From: Ancylobacter mangrovi | Lineage (GTDB): Bacteria; Pseudomonadota; Alphaproteobacteria; Rhizobiales; Xanthobacteraceae | Direction: 5' to 3' | NCBI RefSeq assembly: GCF_024752355.1 | Contig: NZ_JANTHZ010000004.1 | Span: forward strand, 186,001-250,000 | Length of the DNA stretch: 64,000 nt | Shown: positions 13,889 through 62,484 of the stretch, piece after piece | Layout: each line of letters starts with the position of its first letter | Numbering within the stretch: position 1 is the first letter of the stretch | The notes under the pieces: generated by a model | Seen by the model: only the letters and a program-made list of their open reading frames with translations | Database searches by the model: none | Told to the model about the DNA's origin: nothing | Made by a program: the position numbers and the translations under genes

Positions 13889-13922
13889 CCTCAGAGCAGC
13901 GACTTCCTCAGAGCAGCGACTT
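13889..13922. repeat. 17-bp perfect tandem duplication at the end of an amidase gene
   Basis: CCTCAGAGCAGCGACTT occurs twice back to back (13889-13905 and 13906-13922). The copy at 13906 contains the stop of the FmdA-family gene; the other copy lies just after it, so codons for K-S-L-L-stop are present twice but in different frames. Looks like a recent slippage event with no effect on the protein. Confidence 0.85.
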
Positions 13923-14843
13923 GGGCAGCATCATGTGGATGCCCTTGTTGCCGTCGACGAGCTGCGTCACCCGCAGGTTCCCCGCCAGCGAGCAGAGCAT
14001 GTAGGCCTGGTTGCGCGAGAGATTGGTGCGCTCGCAGATATGCTTGACCATCTGGCGCGTCGCCTGCTTGGCGGCGTCGTCGAGATCCTCGTCGAGGCCG
14101 ATCGAGATGAGATGGGTCGCGCTCTCGGCGAACGGCCAGTCGAGCTCCATGTCCTTGCGCAGCGTCAGCCGGAAGGTGCCGGTGACGCCGGTCTCCAGCG
14201 CGGTGATGCACACCTCGCCGTCACCCTGCACGCCGTGGCCGTCGCCGGCGAAGAACAGCGCGCCCTCGTTGAACACCGGCAGGTAGAGCGTGGTGCCCGC
14301 GCGCAGCTCCTTGTTGTCCATGTTGCCGCCGAAGGCGCGCGGCACCGGCGAGCCGCAGCGCCCCCAGGCCGGCGGCGGGGCGGTGGCGATGATGCCGAAG
14401 AACGGGTCGAGCGGGATCTCCGTGCCCCAGGGCATGACGCAGACATTGCGCGCATGGTCGACCACCGGGTGGATGGTCTCGTAGTCGGTGAAGTCGTCCG
14501 GCAGCGTGCCGAGCAGCGGCAGGATGGAGACGAAGCCCCAGTCCTGGCGCACCTTCACGTCGAGGATGTCGACCTGCAGCACGTCCCCGGGCCGGGCGTC
14601 CTTCACGAATACCGGGCCGGTGATGAAGTGCGGGCCCGCGCCCTGCGGCAGCGTGTCCAGCGCCAGCGCGTAGTCCTCGGGAACGGGAAGGTTGTCGGGC
14701 AGCGTCTCCTTGCCGCCGGCGGGGAAGGAATGCAGCGTCACCACGTCGCCGGAGCTCACCTCCAGGATCGGCGGGGTCGAGCTGTCGAGATAGCCCCAGA
14801 CCATGTTTTCCGGCGTGGAGGGGATTTCAAAGCGGCGCGACAT
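13908..14843 (-). CDS. Acetamidase/formamidase (FmdA/AmdA) family protein, short form
   Basis: 311 residues, the short (about 300-residue) form of the family. Visible: MVWGYLDSSTPPILEVSSGDVVTLHS, GPVFVKDARPGDVLQVDILDV, PPPAWGRCGSPVPRAFGGNMDNKEL and the active-site-region motif GDGHGVQGDGEV near residues 208-219. It should hydrolyse short aliphatic amides to ammonia and acid in the cytoplasm. It follows urtE by 35 bp on the same strand, like the fmdDEF-fmdA arrangement known for formamide use, so the importer probably brings its substrate. GGGAG precedes the ATG. Exact substrate unknown. Confidence 0.88.
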   Translation of the reverse strand: MSRRFEIPSTPENMVWGYLDSSTPPILEVSSGDVVTLHSFPAGGKETLPDNLPVPEDYALALDTLPQGAGPHFITGPVFVKDARPGDVLQVDILDVKVRQDWGFVSILPLLGTLPDDFTDYETIHPVVDHARNVCVMPWGTEIPLDPFFGIIATAPPPAWGRCGSPVPRAFGGNMDNKELRAGTTLYLPVFNEGALFFAGDGHGVQGDGEVCITALETGVTGTFRLTLRKDMELDWPFAESATHLISIGLDEDLDDAAKQATRQMVKHICERTNLSRNQAYMLCSLAGNLRVTQLVDGNKGIHMMLPKSLL

Positions 14844-24120: not shown

Positions 24121-24162
24121 CGCGACGCCGCCTTCTTCCTTTCAGTGCCTCGTGGAGTGACC

Positions 24163-25086
24163 ATGACCCAACGTGTCAGCAAGGCCGGCAACATCAAATA
24201 CGCCTTGTCGGCGAATGACGGCTTCGTCGCCAGCGTCGAGCCGGGCGAGACCTTCGTCGTCGAAGCGGCGATCAACGCCAATGACGGTACGATCCGCCAT
24301 GTGGGTCAGCAGCTCACCGAGGCGGATGTCACCTTTCCCTTCGTCAACGGCGCGACCGGGCCGATCGAGGTGAAGGGCGCGAAGCCCGGCGACATGCTGG
24401 TGCTGGAGATCGTCGGCATGGAGCTCGACACGCTCGGCTTCACCGCGCTGTGGCCCGGCGTCGGCATGTTCCCGGACTGGGTGCGCCAGAAGGAGTTCGG
24501 CCACCTCACCCGTGTGGTCGAGGTGAGCGACGGCGTGGTGCACTGGAGCGACAAGGTGAAGCTGCCTGTGCGCCCGATGATCGGCGTCGCCGGCGTCGCC
24601 CCGGTGGCGGGCGCGGTGCTCACCGTCGACAATGGCCCGCATGGCGGCAATCTCGACGTGCAGGAGATCACGCCCGGCAACACGGTGATGTTCCGCGTCA
24701 ATCACGAAGGCGCGCACCTGTTCCTCGGCGACTGCCACGCGCTGCAGGGCGACGGCGAGGCCAACGGCATGGGCGCCATCGAGATCGCCGCCACCCTCAC
24801 CGTGAAGGTCTCGCTGAAGCCGGCGCCGAAGCGCCTCGGCCATCCGCGCATCGACACGCCGACGCATATCTGCACGCTCGGCTGCGCCCGCCCGCTCGAG
24901 GACGCGATGCGCATCGCCTTCCAGGAGATGATCTACTGGCTGGAGGACGATTACGGCATCCCCGCGCCGGAGGCCTACATGCTGCTCGGCCAGATCGCCG
25001 AGGCGCGCTGCACCCAGGTGGTGAACCCGAAATACACCTACATCTGCAAGGTCGACAAGAAACTGCTCGCCCAGTTCGCCGGCTGA
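24163..25086 (+). CDS. Acetamidase/formamidase (FmdA/AmdA) family protein, short form
   Basis: 307 residues. GPIEVKGAKPGDMLVLEIVGMELDTLGF, PMIGVAGVAPVAG, NGPHGGNLDVQEITPGNTV and GDCHALQGDGEANG near residues 189-202 are family blocks; the last matches the GDxHxxQGDxE motif of the other three amidases here. Compared with the copy at 13908 the two are clearly diverged, so this is an old paralogue. It sits 42 bp after a NitT/TauT-type permease in the same operon. GGAG precedes the ATG. Likely hydrolyses the imported amide; substrate unknown. Confidence 0.88.
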   Translation: MTQRVSKAGNIKYALSANDGFVASVEPGETFVVEAAINANDGTIRHVGQQLTEADVTFPFVNGATGPIEVKGAKPGDMLVLEIVGMELDTLGFTALWPGVGMFPDWVRQKEFGHLTRVVEVSDGVVHWSDKVKLPVRPMIGVAGVAPVAGAVLTVDNGPHGGNLDVQEITPGNTVMFRVNHEGAHLFLGDCHALQGDGEANGMGAIEIAATLTVKVSLKPAPKRLGHPRIDTPTHICTLGCARPLEDAMRIAFQEMIYWLEDDYGIPAPEAYMLLGQIAEARCTQVVNPKYTYICKVDKKLLAQFAG

Positions 25087-58808: not shown

Positions 58809-61157
58809 TCAGGGTTCGAACAGGCGCTTGGCAAGGATGGCGTGCACGCCCCAATTGCCGTCCACCACCTGGGTGATGCCGAAATCCACCGCCGCCGACA
58901 TCAGCGCGATCGCCTCGTCCTCGTCGAGCCCCTTGGTGGTCATGAGGAAGCGCCGCACCTTGCGGAAGGCATCACGCATGGCGAGGTCGAGCGAGGATTT
59001 GTTGTAGACGTCGCTCTGCCCGTTGGCGCCGAACTCGGCGAGGTAGTTCGGGTGGCTGAACCCGGTCAGCACCCAGTTCTCCGGCGTCTCGATCAGCGGA
59101 TAGGTGAGATCGGTGAGCACGGTGCCGACCGTATCGGCCTTCTTGTGGAGCACGACCCGGAAGGTGCCGGTCATCGAGCATTCGATCGCGGTGCCGGAGA
59201 GCTCGCCGTCGCCCTGCGTGGCGTGGGGGTCGCCCACCGAGAGCAGCGCCCCGGGCACGGAGACCGGGAGATAGACCGTCGCTCCCTTGCCCAGTCGCCA
59301 GTTGTCGAGGTTCCCGCCGAAATAGGCCGGCGGCACGGAATCGATCAGGTCCGCCTCGCGCGGCGCCACCGCGATCACGCCGAAATGGGGACGCAGCGGG
59401 ATGCGTATGCCCTTCAGCACCTCGCGCCGCAGCGTGACGCCGGCAAGGTCCACCGGCACGCCGGGATAGTCGTAGAGCGCGTGGCGCACGCCGAACGGGT
59501 CGGCCTGCGGCTCCCAGCGGAAGGCGTGCACGGCCTGCGCATAGGGCTCTTCCGCATCGGCGAAGATCTCGTAGATCGTCACCGTCTCGCGCGGGCGCGG
59601 CTCGGTGAGGAACTCGGAATAGTGGTAGCCCCACCATGCCGCCACGCTGCTGCCGAACACCTGCCCGGCGAAGCGCGGGTTGCGCGATCCCCGCGGCTCG
59701 ATGTCGAGTATGTTGACTTCCAGCACGTCGCCCGGCTCGGCGCCGCGCACCGCGATCGGCCCGGTGCAGATGTGCACGCCGAAGCCCTCGCCCGCCCCGC
59801 GCCCGAACACCGAGGCGTCAAGCGGCCCGGCGCCGCGGCGGTCGACATTCTTGGCCTTGGCGGTCCAGTGGAACACGCTTTCCGCGCCGGCATCGCCGCG
59901 GATCATGCGCTCGGGATCGTCGGAGGCGTGCTGGGTCAGGGTCTCGATCGTCACCGCGTCGCCCGAGCCGATCTCGATCAGCGGCTTCAGCGAGCGGCTG
60001 AAATAGCCCCAGTGCACGGTCGAGGCGTCGACCGCGAGGTGATGGTGCAGCGGGGCGTGGGCGGGCGCCGGCCGGGCCTCGCCGCGGCCGGACGCGGCCC
60101 CGGCGCGCTCGCCGCCCTCGACCCGGCCCTGCAGCGCGCGAAGGCGCACAAGTGCCTGCTGCGGCCAGCCCCGGTGGCCGCCGGTCGACACGCTGGCGCT
60201 CTGGCGGTCGGCCTCGCGCCGGCGCAGCTCGCGCGGCGGCAGACCGAAGCGCTCGCGGAACAGCCGGCTGAAATGGGCCGAATCCGAGAAGCCGTGGCGA
60301 TAGGCGATCTCCGAGATCGGCACCGCGCTCTCGGCCGGATTGACCAGGTCGTGCCAGGCGCGCTGCAGCCGGCGCTCACGCACATAGTGGCTGAAGCTGT
60401 CGCCGGTGCCCTCGAACAGCTTCTGCACGTAGCGCTCGGAGATGCCCTCGCCCTGCGCGATCTCCGAGACGCTGAGCCCCTCGCTGCCGAGATTGCGCTC
60501 GATGCTGGCATAGAGCCGCTGCAGCAGCGCCGCCCGGCCCGAGGGCGTGTCCACATTGTCGGCCGCGCGCTCGCTCGCCAGCGCCAGCAGCCATTCGGCC
60601 GCGCTCTGCGCCACCGCCTCCCATTCCGGCTCGGAAAGGCGGTCGAGCGCCTGCGCCGCCGCCTCGATGGTGCGGGCGAGCACGTCCGGCAGGCCCTCGG
60701 GGTCGACGATGAGCGGCTGGACGAGGTGCAGCGGCGCGACCTTGCGGCCGCGGAACACGTCGGCCGGCACCGCCAGCACGAGGGCGCGCAGGCCGCGCGG
60801 GAACTGGAGCTGCCAGTCGCCGCTACGCGGGCCGAGCAGGAACTGCCCAGTGCCGAGTATCTTGCGGCCCTCGGCCGTGTGGAGGACGCTGCCGCCCTCC
60901 AGCGGCAGCACCAACAGCGGCAGGCCGGCACCGCCCGGGCCCGGGCGAGACGCCACCGGGCGCAGCGCCTGCGCTTCCGCCGACAGCCGGCCGAGCCGGA
61001 CGCCGAGCGAGGAGGCGCGGCACATGGCAGTCGCGTGCGAGGGAAGGGCGGCCCGCCCCGCGAGCGACTGGAGCCCGAATCCGCCGAGAACCTCCTGCCA
61101 GGCGCGCTCACGGGAGTCCTCGGAATAGGATTCGCTCGTGAACGGCTGCGCATTCAT
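58809..61157 (-). CDS. AraC-family regulator fused to a complete FmdA-type amidase
   Basis: 782 residues in one frame. Residues 1-200: AraC-binding-type sensor domain. Residues 208-315: two-HTH AraC domain (LSVSEIAQGEGISERYVQKL; ISEIAYRHGFSDSAHFSRLFRERFGLPPRELRR). Residues 316-370: Arg/Gly/Ala-rich linker. Residues 371-782: whole FmdA domain, starting HHHLAVDASTVHWGYFSRSL and containing GDPHATQGDGE (642-652), colinear with the stand-alone paralogue at 61237 (415 residues). No stop or frameshift lies between them. It may sense and hydrolyse the same amide. I know of no characterised protein of this kind. Start ATG 61157; a palindrome covers its ribosome-binding region. Confidence 0.9.
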   Translation of the reverse strand: MNAQPFTSESYSEDSRERAWQEVLGGFGLQSLAGRAALPSHATAMCRASSLGVRLGRLSAEAQALRPVASRPGPGGAGLPLLVLPLEGGSVLHTAEGRKILGTGQFLLGPRSGDWQLQFPRGLRALVLAVPADVFRGRKVAPLHLVQPLIVDPEGLPDVLARTIEAAAQALDRLSEPEWEAVAQSAAEWLLALASERAADNVDTPSGRAALLQRLYASIERNLGSEGLSVSEIAQGEGISERYVQKLFEGTGDSFSHYVRERRLQRAWHDLVNPAESAVPISEIAYRHGFSDSAHFSRLFRERFGLPPRELRRREADRQSASVSTGGHRGWPQQALVRLRALQGRVEGGERAGAASGRGEARPAPAHAPLHHHLAVDASTVHWGYFSRSLKPLIEIGSGDAVTIETLTQHASDDPERMIRGDAGAESVFHWTAKAKNVDRRGAGPLDASVFGRGAGEGFGVHICTGPIAVRGAEPGDVLEVNILDIEPRGSRNPRFAGQVFGSSVAAWWGYHYSEFLTEPRPRETVTIYEIFADAEEPYAQAVHAFRWEPQADPFGVRHALYDYPGVPVDLAGVTLRREVLKGIRIPLRPHFGVIAVAPREADLIDSVPPAYFGGNLDNWRLGKGATVYLPVSVPGALLSVGDPHATQGDGELSGTAIECSMTGTFRVVLHKKADTVGTVLTDLTYPLIETPENWVLTGFSHPNYLAEFGANGQSDVYNKSSLDLAMRDAFRKVRRFLMTTKGLDEDEAIALMSAAVDFGITQVVDGNWGVHAILAKRLFEP

Positions 61158-61236: not shown

Positions 61237-62484
61237 TCAGCCGCCCGCGCGGCCGGCGAAGATCGCCTTGCGGATGGTGCCGGTCACGCCCCAATTGGCG
61301 TCGACCACCTGGGTCACCGCGAAATCGGCCGCCACCGACATCAGCGAGATCGCCTCGTCCTCGGTGAGCTTGTGCACCGTCATCAGGAAGCGCCGCAGCT
61401 TGCGGAAGGCGTCGCGCATCGCGTTGTCGAGGCTGGAGCGATTCAGGATCTCGCTCTGGGGGTCGGGACCGAGCTCGGCGAGATAGTTGGTGACGCTGAA
61501 GCCGTAAACCGACCACACATCGTCGGTCTCGAGCAGCGGATGGGTGAGCCCTTCGAGCACCGTGCCGGGCAGGTCCGCCTTCTTGTGCAGGACGAACTCG
61601 AACTCGCCGGTGAGCGAGATCTCGATCGCGGTGCCGGAGAGCTCGCTGTCGCCCTGCGAGGCATGGGCGTCGCCGCAGGAGAACAGCCCGCCGGGCACGG
61701 CGACCGGGTAGTACATGCGCGCGCCTTTGGCGATGCGCCAGTCGTCCATGTTGCCGCCGGTGTAGTTGGGCGGAATGGTGCTGACGAAATCGGCCTCGGC
61801 CGGGGCGAGCCCCATCGTGCCGAAATGGAGCCGCGCGGGCACCTTGATACCGGCGAGCACGCCCTCCTTCTTCGCGATGGTCGCGTGGTCGACCCGCACG
61901 CCGGGATAGTCGATGGTCGGGTGGACGATGCCGTCCGGGTCGGTCTGCGGCGTCCAGACATAGGAATAGAGCGCCTTCACCGCCGCCTCTTCCATGTCGA
62001 GCTCGTAGATAGTCACGCTCTCGCGCGGCTTCGGCTCCTCGATCAGGTCCTTGTACTGGAAGCCCCAGTTGGCCGCCGGGTTGGAGCCGAAGAAGCGGCC
62101 CTCATAGGCCGGGTTGGCGCTCGGGCGCGGCCAGGTGTCGATCACCCGCACCTCGATCACGTCGCCAGGCTCGGCGCCCTCGACGGCGATCGGCCCGGTC
62201 AGCAGGTGCACGCCGAGCCCCTCGCCCGAACCGTAGGTGAACGGCCCGTCGGTCGCCCCCGCCCCGCGCCGGCGCATGGTCTTCTTCTCGCCGGTCCAGA
62301 GGAAGATCTCCTCCGCCGCCTTGTCGCCGGCAATCATGCGCTCGTAGTCGTCATTGGCGTGGTGGGTGATGGTCTCGATCACCGCGCTGTCGCCGGACTT
62401 CAGCGTCAGCACCGGCGCCAGGGTCCGGCTGAAATACCCCCAATGGACGGTCTCGGGCGTGGCGGGCAAATGGTGCTTGGTCAT
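61237..62484 (-). CDS. fmdA: Acetamidase/formamidase (FmdA) family protein, long form
   Basis: 415 residues, typical of formamidase proper. ETVHWGYFSRTLAPVLTLKSGD, ITHHANDDYERMI, GPIAVEGAEPGDVIEVRVIDTWPR, IPPNYTGGNMDDWR and GDAHASQGDSELSGTAIE (271-288) are family motifs. Hydrolyses formamide or another small amide to NH3. Closest relative in the window is the C-terminal part of the AraC fusion next to it, so one arose by duplication. GAGG precedes the ATG. Lies 62 bp after the permease-ATPase gene on the same strand. Confidence 0.92.
   Translation of the reverse strand: MTKHHLPATPETVHWGYFSRTLAPVLTLKSGDSAVIETITHHANDDYERMIAGDKAAEEIFLWTGEKKTMRRRGAGATDGPFTYGSGEGLGVHLLTGPIAVEGAEPGDVIEVRVIDTWPRPSANPAYEGRFFGSNPAANWGFQYKDLIEEPKPRESVTIYELDMEEAAVKALYSYVWTPQTDPDGIVHPTIDYPGVRVDHATIAKKEGVLAGIKVPARLHFGTMGLAPAEADFVSTIPPNYTGGNMDDWRIAKGARMYYPVAVPGGLFSCGDAHASQGDSELSGTAIEISLTGEFEFVLHKKADLPGTVLEGLTHPLLETDDVWSVYGFSVTNYLAELGPDPQSEILNRSSLDNAMRDAFRKLRRFLMTVHKLTEDEAISLMSVAADFAVTQVVDANWGVTGTIRKAIFAGRAGG

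Follow-up and report, generated by a model that had tools for sequence, protein, structure and literature searches.

Near one end of the window (the whole 64,000-nucleotide stretch of Ancylobacter mangrovi DNA analyzed here) lies a gene that begins with an ATG at 61157, ends with a stop codon at 58809-58811 and contains no internal stop. The first-pass annotation had described one continuous 782-codon frame joining an AraC DNA-binding module, a linker and an amidase; that frame is borne out, with Pfam domains on both sides of the junction, and all three parts are present. What had been overlooked is that the N-terminal ~200 residues form a complete AraC-type domain, so the protein consists of a whole AraC regulator and a whole amidase. 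It matches four Pfam families (AraC_binding_2, HTH_18, HTH_AraC and FmdA_AmdA), and its parts are as follows.

58809..61157, reverse strand: AraC::FmdA fusion gene, a single 782-codon frame with the same architecture in 17/17 confirmed homologous loci
60582..61022, reverse strand: AraC_binding_2 N-terminal domain, residues 46-192 (Pfam 30.4 bits, cut-off 27)
60216..60458, reverse strand: HTH_18 AraC DNA-binding module, Pfam range 234-314 (75.1 bits, cut-off 33.6)
60054..60203, reverse strand: linker, residues 319-368, fast evolving except for the RGWP peptide
60162-60173, reverse strand: RGWP peptide in the linker, residues 329-332, invariant in 17/17 rows of the lineage-A linker alignment
58812..60053, reverse strand: FmdA_AmdA amidase domain, residues 369-782 (Pfam 109.7 bits, cut-off 27)

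The hallmarks of AraC/XylS regulators that Pfam detects here are the two-helix-turn-helix module (HTH_18) and the N-terminal ligand/dimerization domain, and the presence of an enzyme domain and a DNA-binding domain on one polypeptide is the hallmark of enzyme-derived one-component regulators, or trigger enzymes. The FmdA_AmdA match falls in two stretches, the best at residues 607-766. In a structure predicted from 28 sequences (mean pLDDT 74, pTM 0.51), the N-terminal domain is modeled as a beta-rich fold with helices, and Foldseek matched the AraC part of this model to CuxR (5nla), Rns and ToxT. An internal start that would yield a free amidase was considered and rejected, as residues 312-386 contain no methionine in 16 of 17 aligned rows (L017 has one).

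Conservation and distribution of the fusion

All 17 confirmed loci, from Ancylobacter, Bradyrhizobium, Martelella and two other Xanthobacteraceae, carry the same domain order end to end, with matches that start at residue 1 and reach 780/781; every row of an 18-row alignment of fusions keeps Met 1. In a scan of ten further fusions, drawn from nine genera or groups at other loci, AraC_binding_2, HTH_18 and FmdA_AmdA were found in 10/10 at E 0.01 or better; AraC_binding_2 exceeded the Pfam cut-off in nine of these and fell just below it in L099 (26.0 versus 27). Genome scans, whose family, order, phylum and G705-family sets overlap, recovered the fusion in 21/149 Xanthobacteraceae (the family of the window; one with an internal stop), 20/397 Rhizobiales (its order), 8/398 Pseudomonadota (its phylum; seven of the eight belong to the family of the window) and 5/200 members of the family of a relative genome, G705; in most genomes of the order and phylum sets only the two best candidates were scored. 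The A. mangrovi genome itself encodes a second fusion, 49% identical, at C5:17440-19740 (L103). Among 13 plasmid records examined of 20 that matched, 12 carry the fusion, which is a single frame in 11 and broken in one, with hosts in Rhizobium, Neorhizobium, Sinorhizobium, Novosphingobium, Caballeronia, Paraburkholderia, Variovorax and unclassified Hyphomicrobiales. A search of phages returned no fusion and a single distant amidase match. Public annotation labels such genes either “acetamidase/formamidase family protein” or “AraC family transcriptional regulator”. These sequences indicate that the fusion is kept intact in many soil bacteria.

Across seven pairs of relatives, dN/dS was 0.03-0.14 for the amidase, 0.015-0.19 for the HTH module, 0.085-0.37 for the N-terminal domain and 0.20-0.75 for the linker, and identity between relatives ranged from about 23-66% in the N-terminal domain to 58-87% in the amidase. 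RGWP occurs in the linkers of cassette-type fusions and was not seen by eye in the linker of the second A. mangrovi fusion.

That the gene reflects a frameshift, a lost stop codon or an assembly artefact is suggested by the rarity of the architecture and by nothing else. The same frame is present in independent assemblies from several families and is under purifying selection across its length, and the 17/17 full-length relatives refute an error of this kind, leaving it a vanishingly small probability. None of the homologs found is split at the linker: the two broken copies are interrupted elsewhere, L036 (genome G114) by a stop within the amidase half and L093 (R. johnstonii TP60), annotated as two ORFs, by a break within the N-terminal domain.

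The amidase domain and its origin

The GDxHxxQGDxE motif that the first-pass annotation reported in the fused amidase is present as GDPHATQGDGE, and four features of the domain were followed through 30 fused domains.

59304..59318, reverse strand: GGNLD motif, residues 614-618, with G614, G615, N616 and D618 in 30/30
59202..59234, reverse strand: GDPHATQGDGE motif, residues 642-652, with G642, D643, H645, Q648, D650 and E652 in 30/30 (G649 in 27/30)
59931..59933, reverse strand: Q409, fusion-specific, Q in 28/30 fused domains and H in 25/25 free T and C relatives
59268..59270, reverse strand: L630, fusion-specific, L in 30/30 fused domains; among 25 free relatives, Y in 24 and F in one

A catalytic role for the GGN-D and GD-H--QGD-E residues is assumed from their conservation. 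The clade-specific H409Q and Y630L substitutions could mean that catalysis has been lost or changed. The amidase part of the predicted model aligns with 3b9t at 61% identity over 413 columns (TM 0.90 by target length), with the catalytic loops modeled poorly (pLDDT <50 at residues 602-616 and 644-656). FmdA_AmdA proteins are described, in the passages of PMC12421990 that treat the family, as hydrolyzing short-chain aliphatic amides, and a remark in PMC5353710 calls the mechanism of the solved relatives unknown; our search of the open-licence literature on the active site of these relatives found no mechanism paper. Against the NCBIfam formamidase equivalog NF045496 (cut-off 500), the fusion scored 67.2 bits and the neighboring amidase 69.2 bits, and neither is therefore classed as a formamidase proper.

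The likeness to the amidase next door that had been pointed out is real, at 57% identity between residues 367-782 and the 415-aa neighbor, but other amidases are closer kin. A tree was built from 62 amidase domains, of which 30 are fused, 21 are cytoplasmic or distant and 11 are long free ones. In it, the fused domains form one clade (support 98/98, a single change needed, 99% of 200 bootstrap trees) and the cassette amidase next door falls in another, which rules out an origin by duplication of that gene. The fused clade instead joins nine long free amidases (support 96/97), and 21 of 23 long free amidases have an RR-x-F leader, read by eye as a Tat signal. Because a single fused clade lies beside apparently Tat-exported amidases, the simplest account would be one fusion event in which an AraC regulator replaced the export leader.

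Gene neighborhood and a candidate operator

The fusion gene belongs to a conserved cassette composed of a family-3 binding protein, an ABC permease/ATPase, a cytoplasmic FmdA amidase and the fusion, often with RidA (8 loci). The remaining features at the A. mangrovi locus extend past the end of the window.

61237..62484, reverse strand: cytoplasmic FmdA amidase of the cassette, 415 aa
62547..64000, reverse strand: ABC permease/ATPase of the cassette; the gene continues to 64250, past the window
64261-65181, just beyond the window: family-3 binding-protein gene
65268-65292 (A. mangrovi C17:251268-251292), reverse strand, just beyond the window: putative operator, upstream of the binding-protein gene

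Genes outside the cassette vary between loci; the flanking aminotransferase, DHDPS, M24 peptidase and enolase genes were considered as parts and rejected, since they are not conserved there in other loci. Wherever the cassette-type cytoplasmic amidase occurs in the family and order sets, it adjoins a fusion (23/23 genomes). Outside the cassette, the fusion is arranged divergently with either a TRAP transporter plus gamma-glutamyltranspeptidase (L106 and the second A. mangrovi fusion, L103, examined over C5:9000-27000) or an exported amidase (e.g., L105, L108, L098 and L099), and in Caballeronia it is divergent from ABC/FmdA genes with a nitrile hydratase nearby. Such a divergent placement is a regulator-like position. 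Elsewhere in the window, two further FmdA_AmdA genes lie at 13908-14843 (reverse strand), beside branched-chain/urea-like ABC transporter genes, and at 24145-25086 (forward strand), beside NMT1-type ABC transporter genes, giving four FmdA-family genes beside three different transporters.

The putative operator is a 30-bp motif, ACAA-N18-ACAA with GTGCGC between, whose half-sites repeat at 22 bp, and it sits about 20 bases before a TAAGCT-like -10 element read by eye. We built a matrix from cassette loci only (21 sites, 17 distinct), the training sites having been chosen with an anchored pattern selected by eye. Scores of at least 27.8 were obtained at 25/27 cassette loci, 21 of which are the training sources; the four outside the training set are L014, L016, L024 and L093. 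L090 has a weak motif (11.5), and the scan found none at the ABC-linked L091. Without retraining, 17/23 non-cassette fusion loci, many of them close relatives and not independent, scored at least 11, 14 of the 17 within 400 bp around the fusion start, and no motif was found at the other six (L041, L066, L068, L095, L096 and L113). Among 1340 background windows, five reach 11, two reach 13 and none reaches 20, values that are slightly low because the surroundings of the top match at each locus were masked, which excluded the in-gene top match of L095 (13.7). Loci not included in this background have in-gene matches as high as 20.5.

The motif was also absent from the promoters of free exported amidases in genomes without a reported fusion (0/19, best 7.7; whole-locus best 9.6), the absence of a fusion being taken from the family, order and phylum scans and two of the 19 genomes being <90% complete. 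L042 was excluded, as the contig ends within its upstream region (whole-locus best 4.8). A rank test of non-cassette fusion loci, including L041, L095, L096 and L113, against the amidase-only loci gave p = 2.9e-6, a value that ignores relatedness. A relaxed pattern matched the 4.9-Mb A. mangrovi genome three times, twice upstream of its two fusion loci; this pattern was composed after the lineage-B sites had been seen, so the C5 match is not blind and the matrix scan of lineage B is the fairer comparison. The third match (C17:283559) scores only 6.1 and was taken as chance. In one genus group, operator-like matches lie inside the fusion coding sequence (20.5 in L037; 14.4-16.7 in L033, L034, L035, L038 and L088) and may be chance or an intragenic site. 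The motif goes with the fusion at target operons that are otherwise unrelated (ABC, TRAP and exported amidase). Together with the conserved joining of a complete regulator to a complete enzyme, this link suggests a genetic switch with its own enzyme built into the sensor.

Proposed mechanism and comparison with known systems

We consider it likely that the fusion activates the genes for amide uptake and hydrolysis as a one-component regulator, with its amidase domain serving as a built-in sensor that is probably still catalytic. A regulatory role is indicated by the divergent placement of the gene, by the conserved HTH module and by a motif that accompanies the fusion next to unrelated target genes; the strictly maintained amidase argues for a pocket that is important, whether as sensor, enzyme or both. 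The fusion protein would bind the ACAA-N18-ACAA repeat as a dimer near the -35 region, and an imported amide would switch the regulator on by binding in the amidase pocket, perhaps with the N-terminal domain taking part. The activated protein would then drive the binding-protein, transporter and amidase genes and, within the cassette, its own gene, and hydrolysis by the fused domain would probably cause induction to fall as the substrate runs out. Family-3 binding-protein transport and the nearby nitrile hydratase or RidA suggest that the substrate is a small polar amide. A more specific version, which we regard as doubtful, is a self-resetting switch, in which the activating amide is hydrolyzed by the regulator's own amidase and catalysis times each activation; the amidase would have been recruited once, from a periplasmic enzyme whose export leader gave way to a whole AraC regulator.

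The first-pass idea that the fused amidase has a sensing role is plausible, and it would also be compatible with a domain that binds an amide or related ligand without turnover, as in BzdR. The fusion-specific H409Q and Y630L changes adjoin conserved motifs, a second amidase is usually encoded alongside, which would make catalysis redundant, and loss of activity in BzdR is presented as essential in the passages of PMC3602430 that deal with it. Such a pseudo-enzyme would nevertheless have kept the checked motif residues in 27-30 of 30 fused domains, in what is the slowest-evolving or near-slowest part of the protein, and we consider it unlikely, if the most serious competitor to a catalytic sensor. 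Somewhat further from our expectation is a protein whose ligand sensor is the AraC N-terminal domain, with the amidase fused for co-expression and acting as a catalytic passenger or oligomerization module: the full AraC_binding_2 domain in every scanned fusion and the fast-evolving linker would fit, but sequence divergence among relatives is much greater in the N-terminal domain than in the amidase, and a passenger enzyme would be redundant beside the second amidase.

It is also conceivable that some other, unlinked regulator of amide genes uses the 22-bp repeat and that the fusion is only one of its targets. The association of repeat and fusion is drawn from sequence, and in some genomes the site faces the fusion gene. 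Such a regulator would not explain why the motif follows the fusion across ABC, TRAP and exported-amidase operons and is missing at all 19 promoters of the same exported amidase in genomes lacking a reported fusion, making this explanation improbable.

Compared with AraC/XylS regulators such as CuxR (5nla), Rns and ToxT, the fusion shares the N-terminal beta-rich domain and the two-HTH module, and it adds a 410-residue C-terminal enzyme domain. Many AraC activators bind a direct-repeat site near -35, an arrangement that the candidate operator here would share. Relative to FmdA_AmdA proteins (3b9t, a Tat-signal protein; 2wkn, a gamma-lactamase), the motif residues are kept, whereas a regulator stands in place of the leader and Q409 and L630 are clade-specific. 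Enzyme or enzyme-like domains share a chain with DNA-binding domains in PutA, BirA, NadR, MocR/GabR, Ada and the AraC-DJ-1/PfpI regulators; to our knowledge, none of these uses an FmdA amidase. Enzyme-regulator fusions are thus already known, and the form joining an FmdA amidase to AraC was not found described in the open-licence literature, where a search of titles and abstracts returned no AraC-FmdA fusion protein; within open-licence full texts, this agrees with the earlier remark that no characterized AraC-amidase protein was known.

The question of how an enzyme turns into a sensor is most clearly approached through enzyme-regulator fusions. The present case offers one ancient fusion, free relatives of its enzyme, both cytoplasmic and exported, and a candidate operator, which together make it directly testable whether catalysis was kept, lost or turned to timing a switch; the fusion would also provide a regulator that responds to amides through a defined operator. 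BzdR comes closest as a precedent in kind and is described in those passages of PMC3602430 as a DNA-binding domain linked to a shikimate-kinase-like C-terminal domain that has lost catalysis. In both proteins a linker connects an enzyme-derived domain with one that binds DNA; unlike BzdR as described there, the AraC::FmdA fusion has intact motif residues and a second, AraC-type sensor domain.
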